NCBI GenBank assembly: GCA_947373185.1
Contig: CANBWP010000001.1
Span: 124,001 to 188,000 of the forward strand
Direction of reading: 5' to 3'
Source: Comamonadaceae bacterium
GTDB lineage: Bacteria; Pseudomonadota; Gammaproteobacteria; Burkholderiales; Burkholderiaceae_C
DNA length: 64,000 nucleotides
Positions 6,661-26,976 of this stretch are shown in pieces (the first letter of the stretch is position 1; every line of letters starts with the position of its first letter). The notes below the pieces were generated by a model, which was not told where the DNA came from, ran no database searches, and saw only the letters and a program-made list of their open reading frames with translations. Made by a program: the position numbers and the translations under genes.

Positions 6661-8085
6661 TTATGATGCAGAGGCTGATTCTTGATTTTTATGTCGATTT
6701 CCGACTTTGAAATTCAATGCCAATTGGTTGCGGCGACCAATTCCTTGGTAAGCAATGCCTAAGTCTTGAAGCATCTGAGGATCATACAAATTACGACCAT
6801 CCAAAATCAAAGCATGATTCATACTTTCTTTGAGAGTCTCAAAGTCAGGATGGTGAAATGTTTTCCACTCTGTCACGACCAGCAATGCATCAGCACCAGA
6901 TGCGGCTTCGTAGGCTGACTCAGCCATATGCAATCGCGATAATTCCTCAAAATGTTTCAAGTCACTTGACAGCGCCTCATAGCCTTCTTTGCCAGCAAGA
7001 GGGTCAAATGCATGCACAGTTGCGCCGCGTTTTAGCAGTTCTTGAATAATGATTCGACTTGGCGCTTCACGCATATCGTCTGTATTTGGCTTGAATGCCA
7101 GTCCCCACACTGCAAATTGCAAGCCACTGAGGTCTTCTCCAAAATGTTGAATGACCCGTGCGACAAGTAAAGATTTTTGATGGTCATTGACATTTTCAAC
7201 CGCGGTCACTACCTTCATTTGACTTCCACAATCAAGGGCCGTTTGGATCAAAGCTCTAGTGTCTTTCGGAAAACAGCTGCCGCCATAGCCAGTGCCCGCA
7301 TACAGGAAATCATGTCCAATTCGTTGGTCTGCTCCAATGCCACGTCGAATACTGTCAATGTCAGCGCCCAACAAATCAGATAAATTGGCAATTTCATTCA
7401 TGAATGAAATTCGAGTTGCCAACATGGCATTTGCGGCATACTTAGTCAATTCTGCGCTTCTCACATCCATCCAAATCGTGCGTGCATGGTGCCTGTTAAA
7501 ACTGGAATAAAGCAGCTCCATTTTTTGATGAACTGTTTTGTAGTTTGTACTTTCGTCCAAGCCAATCACAATTCGATCTGGGTGCATGAAATCTTTGATC
7601 GCGGCGCCTTCTTTCAAAAATTCAGGGTTTGAAATCACTTCAAACAGTGAGTCCTGAATACCTCTTTTTTGCAACTCAGCTTGAAGGCAGGTTTGGACAC
7701 GATAAGCGGTGCCTACGGGGACGGTTGATTTGTTGACAATGACTTTAAAACTCTTCAGATGTCTTCCAATTTGCGAAGCAACTGACAAAACATGCTGTAA
7801 GTCGGCTGAACCATCTTCTTTGGACGGCGTGCCAACTGCTATGAAAATCACCTCTCCGTGATCTACCGCTTCAGCCATATCAGTTGTGAAATGGATACGG
7901 CCCTCGGCACGATTCCGGGCCATCAGCTCTTGGAGGCCAGGTTCATAAATGGGAAGTCCTGCAGAATTCAACGTGGCGACTTTGTTTGCATCGCTGTCAA
8001 TGCAAATAACCTGGTGACCTAGATCCGCTAAGCACCCACCTGTTACCAAACCAACATACCCAGCACCGACAATTGAAATTTTCAT
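6661..8085 (-). CDS. ugd: UDP-glucose 6-dehydrogenase
   Basis: Oxidises UDP-glucose to UDP-glucuronate with two NAD+. The 474-aa protein has the N-terminal NAD site GAGYVGLVTGG and catalytic C271 in GYGGSCFPKDT, plus WGLAFKPNTDDMREAPS of the C-terminal nucleotide-sugar domain. A strong SD (AAGGAG) precedes the ATG. It heads a two-gene unit with lplT. UDP-glucuronate made here could feed the GT4 enzyme and the UDP-glucuronate epimerase at 11962-12972. A tentative Pho box lies upstream. Confidence 0.93.
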   Translation of the reverse strand: MKISIVGAGYVGLVTGGCLADLGHQVICIDSDANKVATLNSAGLPIYEPGLQELMARNRAEGRIHFTTDMAEAVDHGEVIFIAVGTPSKEDGSADLQHVLSVASQIGRHLKSFKVIVNKSTVPVGTAYRVQTCLQAELQKRGIQDSLFEVISNPEFLKEGAAIKDFMHPDRIVIGLDESTNYKTVHQKMELLYSSFNRHHARTIWMDVRSAELTKYAANAMLATRISFMNEIANLSDLLGADIDSIRRGIGADQRIGHDFLYAGTGYGGSCFPKDTRALIQTALDCGSQMKVVTAVENVNDHQKSLLVARVIQHFGEDLSGLQFAVWGLAFKPNTDDMREAPSRIIIQELLKRGATVHAFDPLAGKEGYEALSSDLKHFEELSRLHMAESAYEAASGADALLVVTEWKTFHHPDFETLKESMNHALILDGRNLYDPQMLQDLGIAYQGIGRRNQLALNFKVGNRHKNQESASAS

Positions 8086-8799: not shown

Positions 8800-10836
8800 A
8801 TGTCTTTAGAAAAAATCAAACCCAAGTTTTACATCACATCTTTGGCTGCATTGTCATTACTGGCCAGCCATGCCGTGATGGCTGCGCCAGAAGTATCGCG
8901 ACTGACGCCCCCGAGTGAACTTTTTACAAGTGGTCAAGCGGCTCCCCTCATCGCACGTTTTTTACCAGAACAGCGTTTTGATTTACAAGCAACGATCGTT
9001 CCAGATGCGGCAGACAAAAACATTGCAAAAGCTAAGTTCTATGTCGATGGGGTAGAAATCAAACAAGATGTAGCCATGAAATCTTGCGTCACAGGTTGTT
9101 TGCCCAAAGTAGCTAAACATGCAAGCATCGTCACTCTACGGGCATATTCGAACGCTCAGCCAGGAGTTCATGTCTTTCAGGTAGAAGCGATTCAAAATGA
9201 TGGCCAAGTTACCAAAGCTTCTGGAAATTTTGAAATTGTGCCATGGCAAGTTGGTGGTCGAAAAATTAAAAACATCATCATTATGTTAGGTGATGGCATG
9301 GGTGCAGCCCAAAGAACAGCAGCACGTATCGTCTCGCAAGGTTATGCGCAAGGCAAGGCCAAGTCACCTTTGGCCATGGACACATTTCCAATTTCGGGAC
9401 AAATTAAAACCGCTTCGCTGAATTCACTTGTCACTGATTCCTCGCCAGGTATGTCAGCTTATGTACTCGGCAATAAAAACAACAACAACGAAGAAGGTGT
9501 TTTTCCAGATGACACCCTAGATCCTTTTGACAACCCCCGCATCGAATATTTGAGTGAATATTTAAGCCGTACACAGGGCAAGGCCTTGGGTTTGGTCACT
9601 ACGGCAGATGTATTTGATGCAACGCCTGCCGCCAACGCAGTTCATACTAGCAACCGTGGCGCTGGAACGGGGATCGTTGATCAATATTTGGACGATCGAA
9701 AATTGACAGGTTTGTCCGTCTTGATGGGAGGCGGTCGTAAATGGTTCCTACCCGCTACTGTGCCTGGTTCAGCCAGATCGAATACCCATGATTACGCTTT
9801 CTCTTCAACTGACGGCCACACTGCTGACATTGTTAAAAAGTGGGGCGCTGCACCTGGGCAATTGGACAAAGACAGAGACTTGATTGCAGATTTTCAAACT
9901 GCGGGCTTTAAATATGCATCCGATTTCACCACTCTGTCTGCAATCGATGTCAAAACAACAGACAAATTGTTGGGTCTTTTTGCCTATTCAAACATGAATG
10001 TCGCGCTCGACAAAATTGATGGCAGAAGAAATATCGCTAAAGGTATGAAAGGCCGTGTTGTGGATGATTTTGGTTTTCCAGACCAACCGATGTTGGAGGA
10101 AATGACGTCGAAAGCTTTGGGTGTTCTCAAGAAAAATAAAAAGGGATTTGTTTTGATGGTGGAAGGTGCTTCAATTGACAAGCAAGCCCACAACATGGAT
10201 ACAGAGCGTTGGATTTTGGATACGATTGAATTTGACCGCGCCATCAAAATTGCGCAAGAATTTGCCGAAAAAGATGGCGAAACCTTGGTCATTGTGACCG
10301 CCGATCATGAGTGTTCTGGTGTTGCGCTGATTGGTGGTTCAATGGTCACTGATGCCAAACTTCAAGAACTGGCCAAAGAGGGTGGGGCTTCCAATTTACG
10401 CGATAAAGTCGTTGGTATCTATGAAAAAGCTGGATTTCCAAAGTACACCATCAGTGCTGACGGCTACCCTGCAATCACAGACATTGATTACCGATTGTTA
10501 GTGGGGTATGGCGCAAATTCTGACCGTTACGAAGACTGGCGCGCCAACCCCTTGCCAGTTCAAGATTCGCAACAGCCATTTGCAAAATCGGCACCATTGT
10601 TAGCCTATCCGGTGGATCCCAGTGCGCGTGATATGGATGGGAAATTTTTGGTGACGGGCCAGGTGCCTGGTAACAGTGGTGTGCACACTGCCACTGACAT
10701 TCCAATTTCTGCCATGGGCCCAGGCGCTTGGTCTTTCACAGGCGTTTTAGACAATACCGATGTTTTCTTTCACATGGCCCAAGCCGCAGTCAAAGGCGTG
10801 GTAAAGCCTAATTTCAATCAATCAAGGAAGCGCTAA
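8800..10836 (+). CDS. alkaline phosphatase, large form with N-terminal extension
   Basis: Periplasmic phosphomonoesterase of the PhoA superfamily, 678 aa. After a signal peptide (to about residue 29, VMAA) come some 130 residues of beta-rich, Ig-like sequence. The catalytic domain starts near residue 155 with IIIMLGDGMG (metal Asp) and has the nucleophile in TDSSPGMSAY, VEGASIDKQAH, VTADHE (metal ligands) and a C-terminal HTATDIPISAMGPGA. All core residues are seen. E. coli PhoA is about 470 aa, so this is a long variant. It is transcribed from the Pho box at 8209. The last 23 nt overlap the end of lptF, convergently. Confidence 0.88.
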   Translation: MSLEKIKPKFYITSLAALSLLASHAVMAAPEVSRLTPPSELFTSGQAAPLIARFLPEQRFDLQATIVPDAADKNIAKAKFYVDGVEIKQDVAMKSCVTGCLPKVAKHASIVTLRAYSNAQPGVHVFQVEAIQNDGQVTKASGNFEIVPWQVGGRKIKNIIIMLGDGMGAAQRTAARIVSQGYAQGKAKSPLAMDTFPISGQIKTASLNSLVTDSSPGMSAYVLGNKNNNNEEGVFPDDTLDPFDNPRIEYLSEYLSRTQGKALGLVTTADVFDATPAANAVHTSNRGAGTGIVDQYLDDRKLTGLSVLMGGGRKWFLPATVPGSARSNTHDYAFSSTDGHTADIVKKWGAAPGQLDKDRDLIADFQTAGFKYASDFTTLSAIDVKTTDKLLGLFAYSNMNVALDKIDGRRNIAKGMKGRVVDDFGFPDQPMLEEMTSKALGVLKKNKKGFVLMVEGASIDKQAHNMDTERWILDTIEFDRAIKIAQEFAEKDGETLVIVTADHECSGVALIGGSMVTDAKLQELAKEGGASNLRDKVVGIYEKAGFPKYTISADGYPAITDIDYRLLVGYGANSDRYEDWRANPLPVQDSQQPFAKSAPLLAYPVDPSARDMDGKFLVTGQVPGNSGVHTATDIPISAMGPGAWSFTGVLDNTDVFFHMAQAAVKGVVKPNFNQSRKR

Positions 10837-11935
10837 GATTTGAAACAGAGCGGTGAGAAGGCGAGAGCCTTCTCCATTCAATGTTGAATTCTGTGTGCAA
10901 GTACCAAATCAGCACGATGAGTGAAGCAGAGCCATGTACGGCCAAAAACATGAAGCTAAAACTTAAAGAGCCATCCGCTATCAATCTTTTGCCTATCGTC
11001 AACATGTTGAAATAACCGACGAAGCAAAGTAATGAAATGCCCAATGCGTAACTTTTACCAACACGAGGATTCACACTGGCAAGTTGTAAAGCCAGCAGTG
11101 AAAGGTTAAACGCGGAAACAAATAAACCAATTCGCCAATAAAGTTCACCTCGGTGAATGGGTTCTTGGCTGAAAAGCAATTCGTAGGTACTCACCATCTG
11201 GCTTTGAAAGTCTGAAAGCCTGTGGCTGACTGGATCCATTCTAAATTTTAAATTTTCAAATTCAGTCAGTCGGATTTCGCCGGTCTTATGATTTAGAACG
11301 GATTGTTGACCATGCCTGAGCGCTAAAAATTTGTCTGAAAGAATATATTCAATGACACCAGTTTGTGCTGTCGTCATTGTTTCAACATCACCTTCAGTTT
11401 TTGAAATAAACACACGACTTGCTTCATTCTGGCGTGTTTTATCTTTTTCTATAAAAAAAACCATTTGTTTGGAAGCTGATTCAGAAAATTGACCTGGGGA
11501 AACCCGCTCAATATCGCTTCGCATGTCGAACTTGTCTTTTAAAGATTGAGTTTGTATGTTGCTCCAAGGCCACGCCCATGTGGCAAGCAAGACAATGACC
11601 AATAAGATTGGCCAAGTAAATTTCCAAAGTGGCTTTAGAAAATGAGTAAGACTTAAACCACTAGAAAACCAAATGACCATCTCACTGTCCATGTACATTC
11701 TAGAAAATGTGTAAACAGTAGATACAAATAAACTCAAGGTCAATATTGGCGCCGCATTGCCAACGCCATTCAGACCAATCAGCAGAATCACTTCAGTTGG
11801 ATCTGCTTGGCCTCTCGCTGCAAGTCCCAAAATCCGAATCAACATGATGGTCATCACGATCGTAAATAAGATGACCGTCGTACCGCCAAAATTCCGAAGC
11901 AGTTCCTTTTGAACAGATTTTTGAAATAAATTCAT
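10814..11935 (-). CDS. lptF: LptF-family LPS export permease
   Basis: 373 aa from the ATG at 11935 (an earlier in-frame start at 11983 adds unconserved residues). It has three N-terminal helices, a periplasmic beta-jellyroll containing SPGQFSES, and three C-terminal helices, the LptF/LptG layout. LptF with LptG and LptB2 extracts LPS from the inner membrane. It lies downstream of the epimerase gene with a probable promoter shared through the Pho palindrome; the track back to 11983 overlaps that gene. No lptG or pepA is adjacent, unlike the common order. It may be the only lptF or a paralogue for modified LPS; the window cannot tell. Confidence 0.8.
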   Translation of the reverse strand: MNLFQKSVQKELLRNFGGTTVILFTIVMTIMLIRILGLAARGQADPTEVILLIGLNGVGNAAPILTLSLFVSTVYTFSRMYMDSEMVIWFSSGLSLTHFLKPLWKFTWPILLVIVLLATWAWPWSNIQTQSLKDKFDMRSDIERVSPGQFSESASKQMVFFIEKDKTRQNEASRVFISKTEGDVETMTTAQTGVIEYILSDKFLALRHGQQSVLNHKTGEIRLTEFENLKFRMDPVSHRLSDFQSQMVSTYELLFSQEPIHRGELYWRIGLFVSAFNLSLLALQLASVNPRVGKSYALGISLLCFVGYFNMLTIGKRLIADGSLSFSFMFLAVHGSASLIVLIWYLHTEFNIEWRRLSPSHRSVSNLSASLID

Positions 11936-11961
11936 GGAGAGGCAAGCATTTCGCTGTATTT

Positions 11962-12972
11962 TTATGAATTCGAAGGCTGCCATTGTTCAAGCCAGTTCGT
12001 CATTTCCCTTAAGCCAACTTTGAGTGAGGTGTTGGGCCATTGCCCAATCCATTTCACCAATTTTTCATCACTTGCACATGTCAGCGGTACATCTGAAATT
12101 TGCATGGGGGCGAACTGGACAATGGGGTCTATTTTTAGACACTCAGATAGTTCGTTGACAAAATCAGTCACTTGCACCGGGTTTGAATGTCCGATGTTGA
12201 CAACTTCTGATTTGTTTTTTCCGATTTCAAGTTCAATCAATTTTGAAATCGCGTAAACAGTGTCATCCACATAAGTGAAATCCCTTTTCAGTAAACCATT
12301 CCCAAATAACTGAAGAGGTTGACGAAGTTTTATTTTTTGAGCGAACAATATTGGCGCCATGTCCAGTCTTCCCCATGGACCGTAGACGGTAAAGAATCGA
12401 AGTCCAAGTGATGGGGTTTTGTATTGCGCATGGTAGGCTAAAGCCATTGCCTCATTGGCCATCTTTGTGGCCGCATAAAACGATTCAGGTTTATCTGTTC
12501 GATCGGTTTCCTTGAAGGGGGCCTCACTTCGTGCGCCATAGACGCTCGAAGAACTGGCATACAAGAATTCTGCGATGCCAAATTCTTTGCATGCATCCAG
12601 CACGTTTGCGAACCCCACTAAATTTGAATTCACAAAGTCCATGGGGGCTTGCACAGAGTGTCTGACGCCTGCCTGCGCAGCCAAGTGAACAACAACATCT
12701 GGTTGATTGCGTTTGAACAACTGTTGGACCAGGCTGCGATCTGAAAGGTCGCAAACTTGGTATTCAATCAATTGATTTTTTAATAAATTCGCCAATCGAT
12801 CTTGCCGTAAACGTTGCAATTTCAGATGATTCGTATCGCCTACGTCAAAAAAATGGTTGCGAAAGTTAAATTTGTCGCAAGCAATCACCTCAAAGTTCAT
12901 GCTGTGCAATTTGCAAGCGAGGTGGGAACCTATAAAGCCAGCTGCACCCGTAATTAAAACTTTGCGTTTCAT
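11962..12972 (-). CDS. UDP-glucuronate 4-epimerase (NAD-dependent, SDR)
   Basis: 336 aa short-chain dehydrogenase-type epimerase. It has the N-terminal NAD site GAAGFIGSHLA, the catalytic SSSSVYG serine region and YAATK (Tyr/Lys). Sequences HLAAQAGVRHS and LRFFTVYGPWGRLDMA are typical of UDP-glucuronate epimerases, which make UDP-galacturonate. The substrate comes from Ugd. Its promoter is the minus-strand reading of the palindromic Pho box (12990-13012). The -10 TAAATT (12984-12979) puts the transcript start at the ATG itself. It is followed by lptF. Confidence 0.85.
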   Translation of the reverse strand: MKRKVLITGAAGFIGSHLACKLHSMNFEVIACDKFNFRNHFFDVGDTNHLKLQRLRQDRLANLLKNQLIEYQVCDLSDRSLVQQLFKRNQPDVVVHLAAQAGVRHSVQAPMDFVNSNLVGFANVLDACKEFGIAEFLYASSSSVYGARSEAPFKETDRTDKPESFYAATKMANEAMALAYHAQYKTPSLGLRFFTVYGPWGRLDMAPILFAQKIKLRQPLQLFGNGLLKRDFTYVDDTVYAISKLIELEIGKNKSEVVNIGHSNPVQVTDFVNELSECLKIDPIVQFAPMQISDVPLTCASDEKLVKWIGQWPNTSLKVGLREMTNWLEQWQPSNS

Positions 12973-12989
12973 TCACAAAATTTAATTGA

Positions 12990-13012
12990 GTTTCATGACA
13001 CTGTCATGAAAC
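12990..13012. promoter_or_regulatory. palindromic Pho box driving two divergent operons
   Basis: A perfect 23-bp palindrome with arms GTTTCATGACA and its complement around one C. Either strand reads as two half-sites 11 bp apart: GTTTCAT plus CTGTCAT on plus, GTTTCAT plus GTGTCAT on minus. On both strands a -10-like hexamer follows after exactly 10 nt: TGAAAT (13018-13023) toward the PAP2 operon and TAAATT (12984-12979) toward the epimerase. Confidence 0.75.
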
Positions 13013-13040
13013 TTGGTTGAAATAAAAATGTCTCAAAAGT

Positions 13041-13877
13041 ATGTCTTCACCCTGGAAATTTGCTTTGAATACGTCACATATGCAATCCAACGAAGGTAAG
13101 CACCTGATGCTTTATGCCATCTATGGGTGCAGCATATTCCTCAGTTTCAGCCTGATTTTGTTGAGTTCAGGCTTGAATCAAGTGTGGATGTCAGCTATTC
13201 ATTCGAACCCGTATATGCCCGAGTGGATCTGGGCAATCCTCAATCTCGGTGGCGACGCATGGGTAGTTTTACTGATACTTTTATGCTTAGAAGCTAAACC
13301 CAGCTTCAATACTTCATGGTCTCTTAAAACCTGGATTTTGGGTGCATTCGCAGTTCAACTGATCAAACAAGTTTTGCCAATGCCGAGACCTGCAAACGTG
13401 ATTGGATTAGAGCATTTAACCTTGATTGACCATCCGCCTTTAATGAGCGGCTCCATGCCCTCTGGTCACGCTTTGGCTGCGATGTCTTGCGGATTGATTG
13501 TGTGTGCGGTGTTGAAAAAGCGCTGTGCAAGTCCTATCTGGCTTGCATTTGTACTTTTCATAGCGATTTTGGTCGCTTGGTCTCGCGTTGCAGTTGGTGC
13601 CCATTGGCCTGCTGATGTGATAGCAGGGATAGGGCTTTCAATATTGATTGTGTGTCTTGCTTATGTTTGGGATGTTCGTGGTCCTTGGCATGTTTGGTTG
13701 GAAAAGCCCGTGGGTGGGACTTTTCTGATCATTCTGCATATCTTCATTGCATGGCATTTGACAGTCCCTCAATCTGATTTTGCATTGATTCAATTCGTGC
13801 AATTGAATCTGGCCTTGATCTCCTTGATGAAAGCCCTGGACCTGATCAGGCGAAATTTTTTTGTGCACTTGCAATGA
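13041..13877 (+). CDS. PAP2-superfamily membrane phosphatase (first of two)
   Basis: 278 aa with about six hydrophobic helices. The three PAP2 active-site motifs are intact: KQVLPMPRP (KX6RP), PSGH, and SRVAVGAHWPAD (SRX5HX3D). Such enzymes remove phosphate from membrane lipids, for example lipid A (LpxE, LpxF), phosphatidylglycerophosphate or undecaprenyl pyrophosphate. First gene of a five-gene Pho-box operon. The ATG at 13041 has no SD; the in-frame ATG at 13107 has GAAGG seven nt upstream and would give a more typical N-terminus, so the start is uncertain. Lipid A as substrate is an inference from the neighbouring sugar-transfer genes. Confidence 0.8.
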   Translation: MSSPWKFALNTSHMQSNEGKHLMLYAIYGCSIFLSFSLILLSSGLNQVWMSAIHSNPYMPEWIWAILNLGGDAWVVLLILLCLEAKPSFNTSWSLKTWILGAFAVQLIKQVLPMPRPANVIGLEHLTLIDHPPLMSGSMPSGHALAAMSCGLIVCAVLKKRCASPIWLAFVLFIAILVAWSRVAVGAHWPADVIAGIGLSILIVCLAYVWDVRGPWHVWLEKPVGGTFLIILHIFIAWHLTVPQSDFALIQFVQLNLALISLMKALDLIRRNFFVHLQ

Positions 13878-14845
13878 ATGGCCCTGAATTTATGACGCAC
13901 CTCCCCATTGAGAAAAATCTAGATCCACATATTCGACTTCGAAAGTGGTTCTATCGAATTACTTTTTGGGCACTTGCATTGTCGCTTTTAATGGCCCTTC
14001 TGCGAAAGACAGATTGGCATGCCACGCTATCAATTCTTTTGGGGATGCCTGTGCAAGTCATTGTGTTCTGTGCAGCAGGTTGGTACGCCAGCTTCTTGTT
14101 CAGGGCACTTCGGTTTCAAACTGAGTGGCAATATAGCGGTCGTATTGCGTTTTTTGATGCTTTGAAGGTGACATTTATCCACAATGCGGCCGTCGTTTTG
14201 GTGCCATTTCGGGTGGGTGAATTCGGGTACCCCATGTTGGTTCGTCGTTTATTGCCAGTGACTTGGCAGCAATGTATTCGCAGTTTGCTTTGGCTTCGAT
14301 TACAGGACGGCACCGTGCTGCTGAGCATTTCCTTTTTGCTCGTACCAATTGGTGATAACTACATCAAGTTAGGTGCGCTTGCCTTTGCGGCCTTATTGAT
14401 TGCATTGACTCGTCAGCATTGGTTGAAATTATTACGTTCGCGTCATTTTATGGTTCAACAAATGCGAGCTTTTTTACACCAACGCTCAGATTGGCGAGGC
14501 TGGGTCTTATCGGTTGCAAATTGGTTAGTCAAACTCTGCGTGGTTTCCGTGATGTTGCAACAATTTATGAATGTCACGCAGATCCAAGCTGTTCGTGGTG
14601 CATTGACGGGAGAACTGTCTGCCTTGCTTCCCTTAACTGGCCCTGCAGGATTGGGTACCTATGAGCTGGGCGTTTGGAGTGGCCTTGGGTTGTCTTGGTC
14701 TGAAATGCAGCTTTTGGTTTCAAGTGTTCTTTTCACGCATCTGTTTTTTTTGGCATTGTCGCTGGGTGGTGCCTTGATTGCGTATGCATTCAATGATTCA
14801 TTGTTTGTGGTGAACACTTCTCGTGAGGTTCATGGCCATGGATGA
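13874..14845 (+). CDS. LPG-synthase-TM/UPF0104-family integral membrane protein
   Basis: 323 aa, about eight hydrophobic helices, with RVGEFGYP in the middle and PLTGPAGLGTYELGVW near residue 255, the signature of the YbhN / MprF-flippase-like domain family. Members act with lipid glycosyltransferases or flip lipids; no catalytic domain is fused here. The ATG overlaps the previous stop by 4 nt (ATGA). It precedes a polyprenyl-phosphate glycosyltransferase gene, so it may flip the polyprenyl-phosphate sugar. That is inferred. Confidence 0.72.
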   Translation: MNGPEFMTHLPIEKNLDPHIRLRKWFYRITFWALALSLLMALLRKTDWHATLSILLGMPVQVIVFCAAGWYASFLFRALRFQTEWQYSGRIAFFDALKVTFIHNAAVVLVPFRVGEFGYPMLVRRLLPVTWQQCIRSLLWLRLQDGTVLLSISFLLVPIGDNYIKLGALAFAALLIALTRQHWLKLLRSRHFMVQQMRAFLHQRSDWRGWVLSVANWLVKLCVVSVMLQQFMNVTQIQAVRGALTGELSALLPLTGPAGLGTYELGVWSGLGLSWSEMQLLVSSVLFTHLFFLALSLGGALIAYAFNDSLFVVNTSREVHGHG

Positions 14846-15869
14846 AGGAAATTATATTTTGGAATCGATTGATTCTCGATCGGTCCCACACAGATTGTCG
14901 GTAGTCGTACCGATGTTCAATGAAGAGGAGCTGGCAGCAGACTTGATCAATGCCGTTCACAATGCGCTAGCTAAGTATGCAGATCCGTGGGAGCTGATTG
15001 TTGTAGATGACGGCAGCAGTGATCAGACGTGGACTCATTTGGTGAACAGTGCAAAGCAGACCGGCCCCCACATTCGACCCATCAGATTATTGCGAAATTT
15101 CAAACAGACCGCAGCAATGCAAGCTGGAATTGATGCCGCTAGAGGAGACGTTATTGTGACCATGGACGGTGATTTGCAAAATGATCCCAAAGATATCCCC
15201 GCCATGGTTGCTAAATTGTTAAATGAAGATTTAGACATGGTTGCAGGCTGGCGTCAGAAGCGACAGGATGGGTTTTGGTTTCGTAAGTTGCCTTCGATGT
15301 TGGCCAATCGATTGATACGGAATGTCAGCGGTTTGAACTTCCAAGATTTGGGCTGTAGTCTCAAAGCATTTAGAGCGCCTGTTCTTCGCAAAGTCCGTTT
15401 GTACGGTGAAATGCACCGATTTATTCCCGCGTGGCTTGCCACTGTTACATCACCTCAAAGAATGGCTGAGATGCCGGTGAGTCACTTCCCTCGTACCAAG
15501 GGGCAGTCAAAGTACGGTCTTTCTCGAACTTTCAGGGTGTTGCTGGATCTCCTGTCAATTCACTATTTCTTGCGATTTGGTTCGCGACCAGGCCATTTTT
15601 TTGGGGGCCTTGGGAGTATCGTGACATCAGTTGGGACCTTAATTTTGAGTTACTTAGGCTTTTTAAAGTTGAGTGGTGAGTCCATAGGCAATCGTCCACT
15701 GATGTTTTTAGGCTTTTTTGCGGTGGTCAGTGGTTTGCAATTGCTGACGACAGGGGTACTTGCTGAAATACTCATGCGTACTTATTACGACGCTGGGAAA
15801 TTCAACTCGTATCACACGCTGAATCATCCTTCCGTTGAATCAACTCAGGCTTGGTATGTTGCAAATTGA
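14838..15869 (+). CDS. GT2 polyprenyl-phosphate glycosyltransferase (ArnC/GtrB-like)
   Basis: Transfers a sugar from a nucleotide to a polyprenyl phosphate on the cytoplasmic side. The GT-A domain has VVVPMFNEEE, VVDDGSSDQT and TMDGDLQNDP (DXD-type metal site), and the C-terminus has two membrane helices as in ArnC, GtrB and the rhizobial RgtE. I prefer the ATG at 14838 (343 aa) with GAGG 9 nt upstream; ATG 14832 and GTG 14823 are also in frame and overlap the previous gene. The sugar cannot be read from sequence. With ugd and the epimerase co-regulated, galacturonic or glucuronic acid is a reasonable guess. Confidence 0.83.
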   Translation: MDEGNYILESIDSRSVPHRLSVVVPMFNEEELAADLINAVHNALAKYADPWELIVVDDGSSDQTWTHLVNSAKQTGPHIRPIRLLRNFKQTAAMQAGIDAARGDVIVTMDGDLQNDPKDIPAMVAKLLNEDLDMVAGWRQKRQDGFWFRKLPSMLANRLIRNVSGLNFQDLGCSLKAFRAPVLRKVRLYGEMHRFIPAWLATVTSPQRMAEMPVSHFPRTKGQSKYGLSRTFRVLLDLLSIHYFLRFGSRPGHFFGGLGSIVTSVGTLILSYLGFLKLSGESIGNRPLMFLGFFAVVSGLQLLTTGVLAEILMRTYYDAGKFNSYHTLNHPSVESTQAWYVAN

Positions 15870-17457
15870 CCCCAGCACTCGCGTCAAATTATCTTGGCTT
15901 CTCGGGGCACTTGGTTTACTAGTTTTCTTTCTCATCGGTATTGATCAGTCCTTGCTATTTGATGTAGATGAAGGCGCCTTTTCTGAGGCAACGCGTGAAA
16001 TGTTCGTGTCACGCGATTGGTGGCACACCACTTTGAATGGTGAAGACCGATTTGACAAACCGATTGGCGTTTATTGGTTGCAGGCAATCAGTGTCTCGTT
16101 GTTTGGCATCACTGAATTTGGATTTCGATTTCCCTCGGCAATGTCTGCATGGCTTGCGAGCTTGGCGCTTGCCAAATTCTCGCAACATCTGTGGGGTTAC
16201 AGGGCTGCGGTTCTGACCGCACTCATTTCTGCAACCAGTCTCGGTCCTTGGGCCATGTCGCAAACCGCAAGTGCTGACGCCTTGTTGAGTTTATTCTTTG
16301 TCTTGACTTTCTTGGATCTATGGCGTGCATTGACAGCGCGTCAAGTTGGTCCAGGTCGTCGAGTGGCATTGTGGATGGCTTTGGGCCTGTTGGTGAAGGG
16401 GCCCATTGCCCTTGTTCTGCCATTTGGAAGCCTGTTTATTTTTGGACTCCTTGACAAACAAAGTCGAACACGAATTTTTCAACTCCTCAAAGATCCTTGG
16501 TCTTGGTTCATTTTGATTGCCGTGGCATTACCTTGGTATGTCTATGCCTATTTTCGCCATGGTCAGAATTTTATTGATGGTTTCATTTTGAAACACAATA
16601 TTGAGAGGTTCACTGGCAGTATGGAAAGTCATACTGGCCATTGGGCGTATTTTCTCGTTGCGTTGCCACTTCTGTGGTTACCTTGGTCACCCTTATTGTT
16701 GCGGGCTTTGTTTTTGCTGCGCAGCCAATGGCATCAAGCATTTTTAAAATATTGCTGGGTTTGGTGTGTGTTTGTGCTTTTATTTTTTTCAATGGCCAGC
16801 ACCAAATTGCCTCATTATTTACTCTATGCGGGACCCGCTGTCTGTCTCTTGATCACGTATTCAGCGCTCAGTGCGAATCGTCGATTTTGGTTGGTAACCT
16901 GGACTTGCGCCCTGATAGGCTTTTCTGTCCTGTTGTTCTTACCCGAATATTTGATTCAGCATTCAAATGTGATTAAAGATCCAACTTACCGATTGCTGAT
17001 TGAAGATGCTTCATCGATTGAGGCGAAATCATGGCTCTTTGTCATTCCATTGATCTTCTATATCAAGCTCACAGTTCAAAAAATCATTGAATTATTTTTT
17101 AAATCTGAAATTAGACTCACACAAGGCACAGGTTTTATCGCGTTTGCAATATTTCAAATCGTCATTGTTGGCTTTATTGTCCTGCCATGGTGGTCGCGAA
17201 CATTGCAGTCACCTGTTTATGAGCTGTCGATGCGAATGAAGAATGACCCTCGTCGAGTCGTTCAGTGGGGTGTTCATTTGCCATCTTTTTCTACGTACAG
17301 ACAACAATCGACTCCCAGACGTACGCCTTCGGTAGAAGAGCTGGCATTGGTTAAAAATCAAAGTGATCATTGGACGAGCGACTGGGAGGCGATTGAAACA
17401 AAGGGCCCCTATTCAATTGTCCGTTCACGTGCTGTGTCAGCTCCGGCGCTCAACTGA
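15856..17457 (+). CDS. ArnT-like GT39 glycosyltransferase
   Basis: 533 aa from the ATG at 15856 (a TTG at 15835 extends it). Multi-pass protein with the ArnT/PMT first-loop signature DVDEGAFSEATREM, GEDRFDKPIGVYW, and about 12 helices. The family takes a sugar from a polyprenyl phosphate and places it on lipid A, core LPS or protein at the periplasmic face. It overlaps the GT2 gene by 14 nt, consistent with the two working in series: GT2 makes the carrier-linked sugar, this enzyme uses it. Rhizobial RgtA-D, which add galacturonic acid to LPS, are the closest functional parallel I would propose. Confidence 0.85.
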   Translation: MLQIDPSTRVKLSWLLGALGLLVFFLIGIDQSLLFDVDEGAFSEATREMFVSRDWWHTTLNGEDRFDKPIGVYWLQAISVSLFGITEFGFRFPSAMSAWLASLALAKFSQHLWGYRAAVLTALISATSLGPWAMSQTASADALLSLFFVLTFLDLWRALTARQVGPGRRVALWMALGLLVKGPIALVLPFGSLFIFGLLDKQSRTRIFQLLKDPWSWFILIAVALPWYVYAYFRHGQNFIDGFILKHNIERFTGSMESHTGHWAYFLVALPLLWLPWSPLLLRALFLLRSQWHQAFLKYCWVWCVFVLLFFSMASTKLPHYLLYAGPAVCLLITYSALSANRRFWLVTWTCALIGFSVLLFLPEYLIQHSNVIKDPTYRLLIEDASSIEAKSWLFVIPLIFYIKLTVQKIIELFFKSEIRLTQGTGFIAFAIFQIVIVGFIVLPWWSRTLQSPVYELSMRMKNDPRRVVQWGVHLPSFSTYRQQSTPRRTPSVEELALVKNQSDHWTSDWEAIETKGPYSIVRSRAVSAPALN

Positions 17458-17487
17458 CTAACTTCTGTTTGAAAGCTTGCCCATCAC

Positions 17488-18207
17488 ATGAACATGAAGT
17501 TGTATTTTTTACCTGGATGCTTAGGCTTGCTCGTATCCGCTGGACTTTTCTTTTCCATATGGCCGCAAGCTGATATTTGGGTTTCTCAACTCTTTTACGC
17601 TGGTGATGGTAAATTTCCTGCCAATCAACTTTTTGTGGTTCAAGCGGTTTACAACGGTGTTCCCTGGATTGGTCGCATATTATTTTTTATATCAATTTCA
17701 TTCTTATTGCTTGCGATTTTTTTCCCATTTCAAGTATCAAGACGAAATTGGCGCAGAAGTTCTGCATTTTTCTGTGTGGTGATTCTTGGAATTGGCTTGA
17801 TTGTTCACTCGGTGTTGAAAGATGGCATGGGGCGACCGCGTCCGAGGGACATTGCTGAGTTTTCTGGGCCGACTTCTTATGTACCTGTTTTCACAACAAG
17901 TCACTTTTGTGCCACGAATTGCTCTTTTGTGAGTGGCCACGCTGCAGTTGGTTTTTCGCTGATGTCTCTGGGCATGCTCGGTGTCAAGCGGCGACGCCAT
18001 TTTTGGTTTTCAGTGGGACTTATTTCTGGTGGTCTCATTGGCTTCGTTCGCATCGCTCAAGGCGGTCATTTTTTGAGCGACATCATTTTCTCCTTTGTTG
18101 CAGTTTGGTTGACATATTTACTGATACGTGGGGTGTGGCTTCGTTTCAGAGTTTGGCAATTGTTCAAGCCCCGACTGGCTGTGCCGATTCTCAAGCAAAA
18201 TTTATAA
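17488..18207 (+). CDS. PAP2-superfamily membrane phosphatase (second of two)
   Basis: 239 aa, five to six hydrophobic helices. The active-site motifs are KDGMGRPRP (KX6RP), SGH in CSFVSGHAAV, and RIAQGGHFLSD (RX5HX3D); the serine before the arginine is replaced by valine. The layout with a long loop ending in CATNCSF resembles the LpxE/LpxF group of lipid A phosphatases. It closes the operon begun at 13041, 30 nt after the GT39 gene. Two PAP2 enzymes in one operon could act on the 1- and 4'-phosphates of lipid A; this is untested. Confidence 0.8.
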   Translation: MNMKLYFLPGCLGLLVSAGLFFSIWPQADIWVSQLFYAGDGKFPANQLFVVQAVYNGVPWIGRILFFISISFLLLAIFFPFQVSRRNWRRSSAFFCVVILGIGLIVHSVLKDGMGRPRPRDIAEFSGPTSYVPVFTTSHFCATNCSFVSGHAAVGFSLMSLGMLGVKRRRHFWFSVGLISGGLIGFVRIAQGGHFLSDIIFSFVAVWLTYLLIRGVWLRFRVWQLFKPRLAVPILKQNL

Positions 18208-18318: not shown

Positions 18319-20439
18319 ATGCTCTTTGCTAATGGATGCCTTCAAGTGATCAATTCAACCTCATTGCCTTCAGTTCTCGCGGGTTCCGACTTCGACTTAC
18401 TTGATCGAGATGGAAGTATTTTGGCTTTCAATGAGCGAGTGCTTGATTGGGCCAAGCGACCAGAAGTACCTTTGCTTGAGCGACTGCGTTACCTGTGCAT
18501 CGTGTCTTCTAACTTGGATGAATTCTTTGAAGTTCGAGCAGATTTGCACATGGCTGCATTTCGAAATCAAGATACCAAAGGTCAATACAGCACCAAAACC
18601 TTCGAAACAGTCTATCAATCTGCTCGCAATTTGGTCAATGAGCAATACAGTTTGTACAACGATGTCTTGCTGCCCAGCCTAGAACAAGAGGGCCTGCGTA
18701 TCCTTTCGCATGGTGACCGCAATGCTGCACAAAAAAAATGGGTGCACGATTATTTCCGGCGTGAAGTGAAGCCTTTGCTGGTTCCTGTGGGACTGGACCC
18801 TGCCCATCCATTCCCGCAAGTTGCAAACAAGTCCTTGAATTTCATTGTTCAGTTGTCTGGCAAAGATGCTTTCGGACGCTCCAACGATATTGCCATCGTC
18901 AAAGTGCCTCGCGTATTACCGCGGGTCATCCCCTTGCCCGCCAAAGTGGCTGGAAAAGGAATGGCATTCGTTCTTTTGTCCAGTGTGATCAGAGCTCATT
19001 TGGAAGACCTGTTCCCTGGCCGTCATGTGGGGCAGTTTTCACAATTCCGGGTGACCCGTAATTCTGATCTGTCGGTCGATGAAGAGGAAGTCGAAAATTT
19101 GCGCACTGCGCTTCGTAAAGGTTTGCAGCATCGTCAGTACGGTCAAGCCCTTCGGCTTGAAGTATCTGACAGCTGTTCTAACCATTTGTCGGAGTTCTTG
19201 CTGAACCAATTTAACTTGCCCCCCTCTGCACTTTTTCGTGCGGCAGGGCCCGTTAATTTGGTGCGCTTGAATCAATTGATTGATTTGGTCAATGATGCTT
19301 CTCTGCTCTTTCCTCCATATCAATCGAGTTATCCCAAACAACTCCCCCAAGGCGGTTCGATATTTGCCCGCATGCAACAAGGGGATGTCCTGATTCACCA
19401 ACCGTTTGAGAGTTTTGATGGGGTTTTGGCCTTTCTCAAAGAGGCGGTTGAAGACCCTCATGTGTTGGCTATCAAGCAAACCATTTACAGAACGGGCAGT
19501 GATCCTGCCATGATGAACTTGCTGCGTGAGGCCGTGCGTCGCGGCAAGGAAGTGACTGCAGTGGTTGAACTGAAAGCAAGGTTTGATGAGGAAGCCAATA
19601 TCAATTGGGCTGAGCAATTAGAGTCAGTCGGAGCCCAAGTTGTTTATGGCGTGGTGGGTTTAAAGACGCACGCCAAAATGCTGTTGGTCACGCGGCGTGA
19701 AGGTCGAGTTTTGAAACGCTATGGCCATTTGTCAACAGGTAACTACAACCCGCGGACTGCCAAACTTTATACAGACCTGAGTTACCTAACTTGCGATCCA
19801 CGAATGACGGCTGACATGGACACACTGTTTGTGCATTTGGCCAGTCCAAGTCGTTTGGGGCGCATGAACAAACTGTGGGCTGCGCCATTCCAACTGCAAA
19901 AGAAAATGGTTGAAAAAATCGAAGCAGTTGGCGAAGCTGCGGCCAAGGGTTTGCCAGCTCGCATTGTTGCGAAAATGAATTCCTTGACAGATCCTGTCTT
20001 GATCAAGGCATTGATAGCAGCAGGGCAGCAGGGTGCTCAGATCGACTTGATTGTCAGGGGTGCATGCATGTTGCCTGCGGGTTTGCCTGGTCAAACAGAC
20101 AACATCCGAGTGCGATCCATCATTGGCCGTTTTTTAGAGCATTCTCGGGTCTTCTTTTTTGAAGCGGGTGACGTGCAAGACATCTATCTCGCAAGCGCAG
20201 ACTGGATGACCCGCAACATGACCCGTCGTGTTGAGCTTGCCTGGCCCGTTATGGCGCTTGAATTGCGCCAAAGAATCATTGACGAATGCTTGCTTGCTTA
20301 CTTGCATGACACCCGAAATGCATGGACCCTAGAGGCGGATGGCAAATACCATCGGGTTGAGAAAAAAGGTCAAAAACCTCAAAGTGCACAGGCTTTGTTG
20401 ATGCAGAAGTACTCGCCCAGTCATTCAAAATCAAAGTAA
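18319..20439 (+). CDS. ppk: polyphosphate kinase 1
   Basis: Reversibly polymerises ATP gamma-phosphate into polyphosphate. 706 aa with the four PPK1 domains in order: N-terminal helices (LRYLCIVSSNLDEFFEVR), head domain, and two PLD-like catalytic domains with the phospho-histidine region GLKTHAKMLLVTRRE and YGHLSTGNYN, ending with HSRVFFFEAG and SADWMTRN. The ATG at 18319 has no SD; the in-frame GTG at 18346 is an alternative start. It follows a Pho box. sixA comes 27 nt downstream and ppx is nearby on the other strand, making a polyphosphate block next to pst-pho. Confidence 0.95.
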   Translation: MLFANGCLQVINSTSLPSVLAGSDFDLLDRDGSILAFNERVLDWAKRPEVPLLERLRYLCIVSSNLDEFFEVRADLHMAAFRNQDTKGQYSTKTFETVYQSARNLVNEQYSLYNDVLLPSLEQEGLRILSHGDRNAAQKKWVHDYFRREVKPLLVPVGLDPAHPFPQVANKSLNFIVQLSGKDAFGRSNDIAIVKVPRVLPRVIPLPAKVAGKGMAFVLLSSVIRAHLEDLFPGRHVGQFSQFRVTRNSDLSVDEEEVENLRTALRKGLQHRQYGQALRLEVSDSCSNHLSEFLLNQFNLPPSALFRAAGPVNLVRLNQLIDLVNDASLLFPPYQSSYPKQLPQGGSIFARMQQGDVLIHQPFESFDGVLAFLKEAVEDPHVLAIKQTIYRTGSDPAMMNLLREAVRRGKEVTAVVELKARFDEEANINWAEQLESVGAQVVYGVVGLKTHAKMLLVTRREGRVLKRYGHLSTGNYNPRTAKLYTDLSYLTCDPRMTADMDTLFVHLASPSRLGRMNKLWAAPFQLQKKMVEKIEAVGEAAAKGLPARIVAKMNSLTDPVLIKALIAAGQQGAQIDLIVRGACMLPAGLPGQTDNIRVRSIIGRFLEHSRVFFFEAGDVQDIYLASADWMTRNMTRRVELAWPVMALELRQRIIDECLLAYLHDTRNAWTLEADGKYHRVEKKGQKPQSAQALLMQKYSPSHSKSK

Positions 20440-20466
20440 CGTTCAATTGGCAATGCAGAGTGCCCC

Positions 20467-20928
20467 ATGGATCTGATATTTTGGCGACATGCAGAAGCGT
20501 TCGATGCCTTAGAGGGGCAGGATGACTTGTCACGAACGCTAACGCCTAAAGGCGAGAAACAAGCGCACCGAATGGGGCAGTGGTTAGATCGTCAGTTGCC
20601 TGAAGGCGTTCGGGTGATTTCAAGTCCAGCGTTGCGATGCGAACAGACGGTAAAAATGTTAGGCCGTAAGGTTAAATTTAAATCTGACTTATTGCCTGAT
20701 GCCGCATTAGACGACTTGCTCGTGACAGCTGGTTGGCCCGACTCTAAGATGTCAGTTCTGTTGGTGGGCCACCAGCCCGTGCTTGGTCAAGCCATTGCTT
20801 ATCTTCTCGGTGTACCGCAAGGCGAACTTTCTGTTCGAAAAGGTGCCGTGTGGTGGCTCCGAAGTCGGGTGAGAGACGGCGTGACACAAACCGTTGTGGT
20901 CAGCGTTCAAACACCCGAATTGCTCTGA
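20467..20928 (+). CDS. sixA: phosphohistidine phosphatase SixA
   Basis: 153-aa histidine-phosphatase-superfamily protein. The N-terminal RHAEA carries the catalytic histidine; SSPALRCEQT and the second histidine in VGHQPVLGQ complete the site. SixA removes phosphate from phosphohistidine on signalling proteins, shown for ArcB and the nitrogen PTS in E. coli. It follows ppk closely and probably shares its transcript. Why it sits beside polyphosphate genes is unknown. Confidence 0.85.
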   Translation: MDLIFWRHAEAFDALEGQDDLSRTLTPKGEKQAHRMGQWLDRQLPEGVRVISSPALRCEQTVKMLGRKVKFKSDLLPDAALDDLLVTAGWPDSKMSVLLVGHQPVLGQAIAYLLGVPQGELSVRKGAVWWLRSRVRDGVTQTVVVSVQTPELL

Positions 20929-21450
20929 TCAAGACTTCGCTGGACGACCCGTTTTCAGTGCCGGTACGCTTGTCAATGCGGCCAAAAAGGCTTTTTCATT
21001 GAGGCCACTCAACAATTTCAAGCCTGCACGCAAAATTTCACTTTTCTTGGCGCTGTGCTTCAAAGTGAGCGCTTTTTGCTTCAAAGAAGCAATGGCTTGG
21101 TATTCATCTTTAGGAAATGTGAAGCTATCACGAACCAACTTGGGTTTTTTGAATTTTGGCTCAATGACTTTGGGTTCTGTCACTGTCTTGGCTTTTGGCT
21201 TTGCAGCTGGCTCGCTTGATTTCTTCAACGCTGGCTTGCTTCTTGCTGGTTGGGTTGGTGCCTTGGCTGGTGTTTTCGATATCGCTTTAGTCGGTGCTTT
21301 GCCAGCAGCCTTGCGCGGTGTTTTTGCACCTGCTTTTTTAGCAATCCGTCGAACTGGGTTCTTCTTTGCAACTGGCTTCATCGGTGCCGCAATGCTGGTG
21401 GGTGATGTTTCTGGTGAGGTAATGCTGGAGTCGGTGTTGACAGTTGACAT
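20929..21450 (-). CDS. Lys/Ala/Pro-rich, histone H1-like protein with conserved C-terminal domain
   Basis: 173 aa from the ATG at 21450 (a TTG at 21462 is also in frame). Residues 25-90 are a low-complexity run of Ala, Lys, Pro, Thr and Ser with repeats such as KAPTKA and KTPAKAP, like H1-type DNA-binding tails or PhaF. The last 60 residues form a non-repetitive helical domain starting LVRDSFTFPKDEY with KSEILRAGLKLL, reminiscent of a ribbon-helix-helix partner. Possible nucleoid or polyphosphate-binding protein; no direct evidence. It is convergent with sixA (1 nt between ends) and downstream of ppx on the same strand. Confidence 0.6.
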   Translation of the reverse strand: MSTVNTDSSITSPETSPTSIAAPMKPVAKKNPVRRIAKKAGAKTPRKAAGKAPTKAISKTPAKAPTQPARSKPALKKSSEPAAKPKAKTVTEPKVIEPKFKKPKLVRDSFTFPKDEYQAIASLKQKALTLKHSAKKSEILRAGLKLLSGLNEKAFLAALTSVPALKTGRPAKS

Positions 21451-21498
21451 GACAAATTTCAAAAAAGAGTTAAACGTGTAAATAGTTTATATCGTTTT

Positions 21499-23004
21499 TT
21501 ACTTGACTTCAAGCCATTCCAATTGCCATGCAGTTTTTTGCCAAGCAATACATTCCTCCCGGAGGAGGTGCGCTGATTGCGGCCATTGATGTACCCAAGA
21601 TTTTTTACACTGGATCACAAAAGCATTTTGTGAACCCTCAACTTTGCGAAGGGCCATTCCCTTGAGGTCTGGATCTCGCCGGGCATGACACAAAATGGCG
21701 GCCATGCGGATGCTCAAAAGTTGATGCACAAATTCAGAGTTCTTCAATTCAAACTCTAACTTCTTTAACTTGCCTCTGTGTCCAAGAATCAATTGACTCA
21801 GACGATGCAACTCTGACATGGAAAAACCAGGCAAATCTGCGTTGTCCAAAATATATGCACCATGCTTGTGAAAGTCGCTGTGTGATATTCGAGTGCCAAT
21901 TTCAAGTAAATGCGCAGCCCATGTTAATTTTTTCTCAAGGCGATTGGTTTCAGCCGGATCGACACTGGATTTTTCGAAAATACCCTTGAACAATGTGAGT
22001 GCTGTTCGTTGGACGCGTTCGGCTTGTGCGACATCGACTGCAAATCGATTGCCCAAGGCCAAGACCATGCTGCTTCGCAGGTCAGTATTTTCTTCACGCT
22101 GCATGAGGTCGTACAGCACGCCATGCCTCAATGCACCTTGTGCAGCGTGCATCGTTTCAATTTGCATCAGATCAAAAAGTGCACACAAAACAGCCAATCC
22201 CCCGCCGATGACTGGTTTGCGGTCTTCTTTAACGCCATCCAGTTTAAGTGCATCGCTACGGCCGGCTTTGATCAATTTCTCTTTTAACCAGTCTAGTCCT
22301 TCACGTGTAATCACTTCTTCTGGCCAACCTGCAGCATGCAGCACATCAGTGACGGCGCCAATCGTTCCCGACGAGCCGTAGGCCATATCCCAGCAATTTC
22401 TTGGATAAAGCGCAAGTGCTTCATCTAACACTGCTTTGGCTGCAACTTCTGCCCACTCAAAAGCCAAGGGTGTAAATTGACCTTCAGCGAAATACTTCAT
22501 AGACCATTTAACGCTGCCAACACGGTAAGACTCCATGGTTTGAGGTTTGTAGCCTTTTCCCAAAATCATTTCTGTGGATCTGCCGCCAATGTCGATCACC
22601 AATCTTTTTTCTTCGGATTGGGGCAACAGATTGACCACGCCCGAATAAATCAGTCGCGCTTCTTCTCGGCCAGAAATGACCTCAATTGGGAAACCTAAAA
22701 GTTTTTCTGCATGGCTTAAAAATTCGTCACGATTCTTAGCCTCTCGCAGAGTTTGAGTCGCTACTGCGCGTACATGTTTGGGGCCAAAGCCAGACAAGCG
22801 CTCAGAAAAACGGGCTAAACAATCCCAGCCTCGCTGCATCGCTTCTTTGGACAGCATGCGTTCTGCGTCCAAGCCATTACCTTGCCGGACTGTTTCTTTA
22901 AGATATTCCACGCGCCGGATATGCCCGTGCTCAAGTACGCCAATTTCGAGGCGAAAGCTGTTGGAGCCTAAATCAATGGCCGCCAGTAGTTGTCCGTTTT
23001 TCAT
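21499..23004 (-). CDS. ppx: exopolyphosphatase / guanosine pentaphosphatase
   Basis: 501 aa of the Ppx/GppA family in the ASKHA fold. The N-terminal AAIDLGSNSFRLEIG and the middle VIDIGGRSTEMILG are the phosphate-binding loops, with E in SGREEARLIYSGV; the C-terminal third is the HD-like helical domain. It degrades polyphosphate, opposing Ppk, and family members can also hydrolyse pppGpp. It is divergent from pstS; a Pho-like inverted element (23054-23082) lies 50 nt before its start. Confidence 0.92.
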   Translation of the reverse strand: MKNGQLLAAIDLGSNSFRLEIGVLEHGHIRRVEYLKETVRQGNGLDAERMLSKEAMQRGWDCLARFSERLSGFGPKHVRAVATQTLREAKNRDEFLSHAEKLLGFPIEVISGREEARLIYSGVVNLLPQSEEKRLVIDIGGRSTEMILGKGYKPQTMESYRVGSVKWSMKYFAEGQFTPLAFEWAEVAAKAVLDEALALYPRNCWDMAYGSSGTIGAVTDVLHAAGWPEEVITREGLDWLKEKLIKAGRSDALKLDGVKEDRKPVIGGGLAVLCALFDLMQIETMHAAQGALRHGVLYDLMQREENTDLRSSMVLALGNRFAVDVAQAERVQRTALTLFKGIFEKSSVDPAETNRLEKKLTWAAHLLEIGTRISHSDFHKHGAYILDNADLPGFSMSELHRLSQLILGHRGKLKKLEFELKNSEFVHQLLSIRMAAILCHARRDPDLKGMALRKVEGSQNAFVIQCKKSWVHQWPQSAHLLREECIAWQKTAWQLEWLEVK

Positions 23005-23053
23005 CTGAGTACTTCAAAGTTGCGCAGAATAGTCATTCAATTCACGTTATTTT

Positions 23054-23082
23054 GTGTCTATTTTTTGTCATTTTGATGACAA
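23054..23082. promoter_or_regulatory. Pho-like element between ppx and pstS
   Basis: GTGTCTA (23054-23060) and TTGTCAT (23065-23071) are 11 bp apart on plus, and TTGTCAT with ATGACAA (23076-23082) makes an inverted repeat. Toward ppx, CAAAAT (minus strand, 23054-23049) sits 10 nt after the second half-site and may be its -10. Orientation is uncertain. Confidence 0.45.
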
Positions 23083-23150
23083 ATTGTGCCTGATTGCCTA
23101 ATAAATACTTCTGATTGGCTTGCTGGGACCCAAAGTGCATAAGTTGAAGG

Positions 23151-23195
23151 GTGTCTATAAATTGACATTAATTTGTCACAATTGGCGGCTAAATT
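23151..23195 (+). promoter_or_regulatory. Pho box and -10 of the pst-pho operon
   Basis: Three half-sites in an 11-bp register: GTGTCTA (23151), TTGACAT (23162) and TTGTCAC (23173-23179). The -10 TAAATT (23190-23195) follows 10 nt later, giving a start near 23202 and a leader of about 85 nt to pstS. Confidence 0.8.
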
Positions 23196-23286
23196 AAAAG
23201 GGTGCTGCAAAAGTCTGCCGTGAATACAAGGCAGGCATGTTGCACATACAGACATCGAGTATCAACCTCTGAATCAAGGATTCAAA

Positions 23287-24309: not shown

Positions 24310-24320
24310 TTGGGACTTCT

Positions 24321-25301: not shown

Positions 25302-26164
25302 CCATTCAAAGCAATTTGGATCCTTCCATTTACGCAAGACGCAAACGCGCCAACTTTATCGGCTTGGTTTTGTCCATGTCGGCCATGGCCATTGGCCTGA
25401 TTTTCTTGCTTTGGATCTTGACCATCCTCATGTTCAAAGGCTTTTCTGCTTTGAACTTCGCCATGTTGACGCAAAGCACCCCGGCCCCAGGCTCTGAGGG
25501 CGGCGGCTTGGCCAACGCCATAGTGGGTAGCCTGATGATTGTGGTTTCATGCGCCTTGCTGAGTACCCCCATTGGTGTATTGGCGGGCGTCTACCTATCA
25601 GAATATGGTGATCGCAGCAAAATGGCTGCCATCACCCGTTTTGTGAATGACATCATGTTGTCTGCACCGTCCATTGTGATTGGCTTGTTTGTCTATGCCT
25701 TGGTGGTGGTACCTTCTAAGCACTTCTCTGGCTGGGCTGGCACCATTGCCCTCTCATTGATCGCGATTCCAGTCGTCGTTCGCACCACAGAAAACATGCT
25801 GAAATTGGTACCAGTGAGTTTGCGTGAAGCTGCATTTGCGCTGGGCGCACCCAAATGGAAAGTGTCAACATCGGTCGTTTTAAAAGCTGCAAGAAGCGGC
25901 GTGATGACCGGATTACTCCTGGCCTTGGCTCGTGTCAGTGGTGAAACGGCCCCCCTGTTGTTCACCGCATTGAATAATCAGTTTTTCTCTCTTGATATGA
26001 ACAAGCCAATGGCCAATTTGCCAGTGGTCATCTTTCAATTCGCCATGAGCCCCTATGACAATTGGGTCAGTTTGGCATGGGGTGGTGCTCTGCTGATCAC
26101 GCTCACAGTTTTGGCACTCAACATCGTTGCACGCGTTGTGTTCCGAGAAAAAGTTGCAGCTTAA
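25298..26164 (+). CDS. pstA: phosphate ABC transporter permease PstA
   Basis: 288 aa, six helices, EAA loop [15 protein letters not shown]. The ATG at 25298 overlaps the pstC stop (ATGA), which marks the true start; the frame opens earlier at 25256 inside pstC. Pairs with PstC. Confidence 0.95.
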
Positions 26165-26185
26165 ACATTCAACGGACTAATTAAT

Positions 26186-26962: not shown

Positions 26963-26976
26963 TTAGGAGTTAGAAA

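Follow-up and report, generated by a model that had tools for sequence, protein, structure and literature searches.

A 64,000-nucleotide stretch of a freshwater Limnohabitans genome (Comamonadaceae bacterium, assembly GCA_947373185.1, contig CANBWP010000001.1, positions 124,001 to 188,000), hereafter called the window, carries between phoA and ppk, within an island of Pho genes, two divergent gene groups that may together exchange lipid A phosphate for a uronic acid. The minus-strand operon starts with an epimerase (11962..12972), the open reading frame of which is overlapped by that of a paralog of the lipopolysaccharide (LPS) exporter permease LptF (10814..11983), hereafter abbreviated as LptF2. 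The plus strand presents, in this order, a PAP2 family phosphatase (PAP2A, 13041..13877, PF01569; its start codon is uncertain and the true start possibly lies further downstream), a membrane protein of the LPG_synthase_TM/UPF0104 family (13874..14845, 45 bits with PF03706) presumed to be a flippase for polyprenyl-phosphate-linked sugars, a polyprenyl-phosphate glycosyltransferase of family GT2 (14823..15869, with a possible alternative ATG start at 14832), a glycosyltransferase of family GT39 (15835..17457, PF13231) and a second PAP2 phosphatase (PAP2B, 17488..18207). Since these plus-strand frames either overlap their neighbours or lie 30 bases apart from them, the five genes probably form one operon. 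To the left of this module are phoA and a gene of the UDP-glucose 6-dehydrogenase family (UGD, 6661..8085, minus strand; 437 bits with TIGR03026, cut-off 190), and to its right ppk, a SixA-like phosphatase gene, ppx and pstSCAB-phoUBR (18319..29723; frames named by inspection), in an order that is kept in relatives.

The window's list of reading frames and the Pfam and NCBIfam scans show that every frame of the module is present and open, with families matching those of the initial annotation, which had described the two divergent operons from the DNA letters and a list of reading frames. The gene set is thus real as first described, and the module is conserved and coherent; motifs with the catalytic residues are kept in both PAP2 proteins, and the position within a Pho island, also part of that description, is held in close relatives. 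The range originally given, 11962..18207, encloses the module genes but leaves most of LptF2 outside. The GT2 is 83-84% identical to its counterparts in loci L050 and L051.

The RgtE-like character initially attributed to the GT2 is borne out by its identity in 162 of 299 residues (54%) with the GT2 that sits amid three GT39 genes in Rhizobium phaseoli, a protein considered RgtE on the basis of this position; the RgtE of R. leguminosarum is RL1470 in the accessible part of PMC7663294. The best NCBIfam model for the window GT2 is that of ArnC, with 176 bits under a cut-off of 529. The epimerase (PF01370/PF16363), probably a UDP-glucuronate 4-epimerase, finds as best PDB match 5u4q, labelled as dTDP-glucose 4,6-dehydratase, and next MoeE5 and 6zl6, which are UDP-glucuronate 4-epimerases. 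UDP-galacturonate (UDP-GalA) is the likely donor for the GT2, because ArnA was not found above cut-off in the same genome (best match 133 bits, cut-off 777) while UGD, the presumed source of UDP-glucuronate, and the epimerase are encoded, as the initial annotation had it for the sugar supply. We also considered and discarded the 4-amino-4-deoxy-L-arabinose (L-Ara4N) pathway: in addition to the low ArnA score, the ArnT model gives 129 bits on the GT39 against a cut-off of 567.

We then compared loci containing related GT2 genes, namely the best 80 among at least 591 stretches that matched in a genome scan. A LPG_synthase_TM/UPF0104 match is found in 63 of these 80 loci. One of them, from Mesorhizobium (L087, 7211-12035), has a GT39, UPF0104, an RgtE-type GT2 and an epimerase in a row, possibly an RgtF/RgtE locus, and this arrangement supports the role of UPF0104 as a carrier flippase.

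Among the phosphatases, PAP2B has LpxF (NF045633) as its best NCBIfam match, and it is named here LpxF-like rather than LpxF because its 114 bits are under the cut-off of 400 bits; the best match to this model in R. phaseoli, a candidate LpxF identified by model score with no experiment behind it, itself scores 80-81. When PAP2B was compared by BLAST with the PAP2 proteins of R. phaseoli, Mesorhizobium and its own genome, which holds five further PAP2 proteins, the best match was this same candidate (26% over 212 residues, E 8e-14). Moreover, a tree of 44 PAP2 rows places 17 PAP2B rows and the R. phaseoli candidate in one clade with support of 100/99, in an analysis that left out three references longer than 400 amino acids and has several references on long branches. 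PAP2B is therefore regarded as LpxF-like and predicted to remove the 4'-phosphate of lipid A, with weak matches in structure searches (YodM, E 0.01; LpxE, E 0.06). For PAP2A, an LpxE-like nature is only suggested, LpxE being its best PDB match in sequence-profile searches; it may instead be a phosphatase of undecaprenyl pyrophosphate or of another lipid.

The GT39 falls on the ArnT side of its family, grouping with the GT39s of other modules in a clade of 18 rows (98/99), and its nearest PDB entry by profile is ArnT (5ezm, E 6e-46), consistent with a predicted lipid A glycosyltransferase. It is the sole PMT_2 match in its genome at E 0.001. In the 55 of the 80 loci with enough flank for counting, this type of GT39 is strongly paired with PAP2A (26 loci with both, 5 and 3 with one of the two, 21 with neither; odds ratio 36, p 1e-7) and shows no association with PAP2B (p 0.79). 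PAP2B is instead paired with a second GT39, hereafter called RgtD-side, that groups (83/71) with GT39d of R. phaseoli, by elimination its RgtD: the corresponding counts are 17/14/5/19 (p 0.014), or 17/8/5/19 as counted by hand without the six loci in which this second GT39 is or may be RgtA-C (L105, L116, L121, L124, L127, L129). The loci are related to each other, so that all these p values come from non-independent tests. Some GT2 loci carry only the RgtD-side GT39 and PAP2B (L066, L073 and L075-L077), others only the GT39 and PAP2A (L095, L102 and L110-L112). A simple reading of these pairings is that there are two separable half-modules, each with one phosphatase and one transferase, for either end of lipid A. 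The window has PAP2A, PAP2B and the GT39 and lacks the second GT39; either the GT39 serves both ends of lipid A or else the 4' end stays bare, as may follow from the missing RgtD-side enzyme.

The LptF of the window is the third gene of the LptF/LptG family in this genome, the canonical pair lying on another contig. Its membership of the LptF family, claimed from the start, is sustained by 298 bits with TIGR04407 (cut-off 230); it is, however, a genus-specific paralog, 51% identical to the canonical LptF, beside that pair. The LptF2 clade is present in 10 of 90 genomes of the genus, this one included, with members 65-71% identical to the window protein, and all 10 also carry the module, although in G276 the GT2 is cut at a contig end and in G261 LptF2 and the module are on different contigs. 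Within the close clade, LptF2 is found in 10 of the 11 loci where the stretch is assembled, all but that of G216; among 200 genomes of the family just this genome, G031 and G098 have two LptF matches. LptF2 appears to have arisen by duplication and then to have changed fast, since a tree nests it in the LptF clade of the genus (98/98), where its stem is long (1.3); its exact position among the canonical rows is unsure (92/81), and three rows on branches of 5-10 were left unused (L101_mod, L260_fam and L078_mod). The paralog is under purifying selection (dN/dS of 0.05-0.13 in six pairs, one near saturation), and it differs in charge from canonical LptF at 22 alignment columns, as seen with 15 LptF2 rows in which five genomes are entered twice.

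In 6 of the 80 loci an LptF gene is no more than 10 kb away from the GT2, compared with about 0.4 expected in 1.375 Mb of random sequence if one such pair occurs per 3-4 Mb, which is our own estimate; in the five of these loci that do not belong to the window's clade, it scores above the LptF cut-off in every case. In genomes G297 and G298, LptF is placed between PAP2A and PAP2B and a different contig has the sole other match to the LptF/LptG family, while G299 and G300 have two genes of this family in tandem. The same placement between the two phosphatases, away from the other LptF/LptG-family gene, is seen in marine γ-proteobacteria (L093, 13399-14466; L101, 13384-14442). This recurrent link to GT2 loci supports LPS as the target of the module.

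The two operons are separated by a palindromic putative operator, TTTCATGACACTGTCATGAAA (12991..13011), which occurs nowhere else in the genome even when up to three mismatches are allowed (the reversed pattern has 0 sites). It allows two readings, as a pair of TGTCATGAAA half-sites facing outward or as a direct repeat of 11 bases. It is conserved in all 10 close-clade loci with the region assembled, the window included, in a block with 31 of 37 columns invariant, whereas the flanking stretches have 9 of 38 and 1 of 45. A local Pho matrix, built with 20 sites from the pstS, GT4, ppk and phoA promoters, detects an overlapping site just downstream with 14.07 bits, twelfth in rank in the window, where 13 sites reach at least 14 bits versus 1.4 in simulations; this best site of the divergent promoter has P 0.009 in simulated intergenic sequence. 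As for location, all close-clade loci but L188 (10 of 11) have the module directly beside ppk. A second Limnohabitans clade has no such palindrome, and in 5 of its 7 loci the module borders on the PSD-AT3-Mpo1-GT4 genes, which in the present genome make up the left portion of this island. Control of the divergon by the Pho system, presumably through PhoB, is likely, and it rests more on location than on the palindrome because the latter fits the neighbouring Pho boxes poorly.

That left part of the island (16-6660) encodes a PSD-like decarboxylase, a class III aminotransferase (AT3), an Mpo1-like protein, a GT4 near glycolipid synthases and LplT, possibly low-phosphate lipid genes, which stay with the module in the second clade; among the strongest Pho-box-like sites is that of the GT4/Mpo1 promoter, with 26.2 bits, one of the sites from which the matrix was built. 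A 180-residue protein encoded before phoA (8248-8790), with no Pfam or NCBIfam match, keeps its place beside phoA in L189, L194, L196 and L197. Further possible phosphatase genes lie at 35446-40296, namely a metallophosphatase-like frame recognised by inspection and the genes of a PhoX family protein and a metallo-beta-lactamase-fold protein.

The case for a uronic-acid module acting on lipid A is good, and we consider it somewhat better than an even chance (about 0.55) that the divergon remodels lipid A, probably under a switch by phosphate starvation, with galacturonic acid (GalA) taking the place of phosphate and LptF2 exporting the phosphate-poor LPS. UGD and the epimerase would produce UDP-GalA, from which the GT2 would load GalA onto polyprenyl phosphate for UPF0104 to flip across the membrane. 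In the periplasm, PAP2B would then remove the 4'-phosphate of lipid A and PAP2A the 1-phosphate, both releasing inorganic phosphate, and the GT39 would attach GalA, most likely at the site where PAP2A acted. The duplicated and diverged LptF2 may finally replace or join LptF in the LptB2FG complex for export of phosphate-poor LPS.

Several results weigh against this reading and have also narrowed the initial annotation. The latter had both PAP2 proteins as LpxE and LpxF counterparts and named kinship with undecaprenyl recycling enzymes as contrary to its proposal; PAP2B groups with the LpxF candidate, while PAP2A ties between YodM and LpxE in structure comparison and has as best NCBIfam match the undecaprenyl-diphosphatase SepP (52 bits, cut-off 250). 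The GT39, first described as ArnT/RgtD-like, stands on the ArnT side only: the tree rejects it as one of RgtA-D, off the branch of R. phaseoli GT39 a-d, with which no BLAST match was obtained at E 0.1, and the PMT_2 search found no RgtD-side GT39 in the genome. Replacement of both lipid A phosphates by GalA therefore remains unproven, since the RgtD-side transferase that accompanies LpxF-like genes elsewhere is absent here. The well-assembled relative G216 carries the module without LptF2. What was called a shared Pho palindrome is indeed a conserved and unique palindrome, but the idea of a simple Pho box is weak, given that the local matrix ranks it 41st in the window (8.3 bits, with 41 sites versus about 26 simulated) and matches of the E. 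coli Pho pattern are about as frequent as expected by chance (9 in the window, 6.5 expected). Additionally, the 14.07-bit site is not kept in L185-L187, ppk is present in just 2 of the 80 GT2 loci, both of this genus and none outside it, and L046, L047 and L061 carry a two-component system instead.

These promoter and neighbourhood results speak for another explanation, that the GalA added to LPS serves to stabilise the envelope or to resist peptides with no response to phosphate, the island position being historical and the palindrome belonging to another regulator. It would account for the poor match to the local matrix, for the other two-component systems beside the genes elsewhere and for the absence of the palindrome from the second Limnohabitans clade; we nevertheless consider it unlikely, because the two clades hold the module beside different parts of the same island, the promoter has TGTCAT half-sites and an overlapping 14-bit site (P 0.009) and phosphate removal suits a Pho setting. 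Less probable is a Pho-induced pathway for membrane glycolipids with no part for LPS, in which the PAP2 enzymes turn phosphatidate into diacylglycerol, to which the GT39 adds GalA: PAP2A matches YodM in fold, the substrate of PgpB-type enzymes is phosphatidylglycerophosphate, a lipid-type GT4 and LplT are encoded nearby, and uronosyl diacylglycerols are known low-phosphate lipids (PMC9804370, in its accessible part). The LpxF-like PAP2B, the ArnT type of the GT39 and the linkage of LptF in several lineages all speak against such a pathway. The least probable alternative, in which the acceptor of GalA is the LPS core or some other glycan of the surface and the PAP2 enzymes serve to recycle polyprenyl pyrophosphate, draws on the SepP match of PAP2A and on the R. 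phaseoli GT39 genes beside the RgtE-type GT2, which we take to be the core transferases RgtA-C, but the module GT39 is off their branch, the genome has five further PAP2 proteins and PAP2B is LpxF-like.

The exchange of lipid A phosphates for GalA is already known: as far as the accessible text of PMC7663294 goes, rhizobia, Oligotropha and Caulobacter use RgtE, RgtD, RgtF, LpxE and LpxF, and the Oligotropha homologues of rgtE, lpxE and rgtF have adjacent locus numbers. The lipid A remodelling proposed here shares with that pathway an RgtE-like GT2, an LpxF-like PAP2, a GT39, the supply of UDP-GalA and perhaps, in PAP2A, an LpxE counterpart; it differs in having its GT39 on the ArnT side, with the RgtD-side one absent from this genome, and in its setting in a Pho island, as a divergon with an LptF paralog. 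The ArnC/ArnT system for L-Ara4N is alike in fold family and in the best NCBIfam and PDB matches of GT2 and GT39, whereas both proteins here are under the cut-offs, no ArnA is above its own and a uronic-acid donor is encoded. Phosphate signalling is also known to change envelope lipids in P. aeruginosa, where low phosphate induces remodelling to GADG/MGDG, uronosyl glycerolipids included (PMC9804370), and in an E. coli pst mutant with lower lipid A 1-pyrophosphate (PMC2648988), to judge from the accessible parts of both papers; those changes concern glycerolipids or lower LpxT, whereas the prediction here is of phosphatases dedicated to lipid A and of a transferase for GalA. In the portions available, PMC6445935 describes LPS differences between wild-type Caulobacter and glycosphingolipid mutants at low phosphate as not remarkable, and PMC11828411 deals with aminolipids. 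LptF2 passes the cut-off for the LptF of the LptB2FG exporter and differs from it as a diverged second copy within a modification divergon. In the open-access literature searched, neither a GalA-lipid A operon linked to Pho nor an LptF paralog linked to phosphate came to our notice, and to that extent the divergon, its place in a Pho island and its LptF paralog are new.

Gram-negative plankton pay a fixed cost in phosphorus for the phosphates of their lipid A, and remodelling at low phosphorus is well described for glycerolipids. We tentatively extend our reading to a starvation switch towards a phosphorus-poor, uronic-acid LPS, for which LptF2 may give LptB2FG a second specificity and the cell two exchangeable LPS exporters, used according to the phosphate supply. 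Limnohabitans strains with the module exist (L051, L052), which makes the idea testable, and the LptF duplication, with its 22 charge-changed columns, offers a natural experiment on the features of lipid A that are recognised by LptB2FG.

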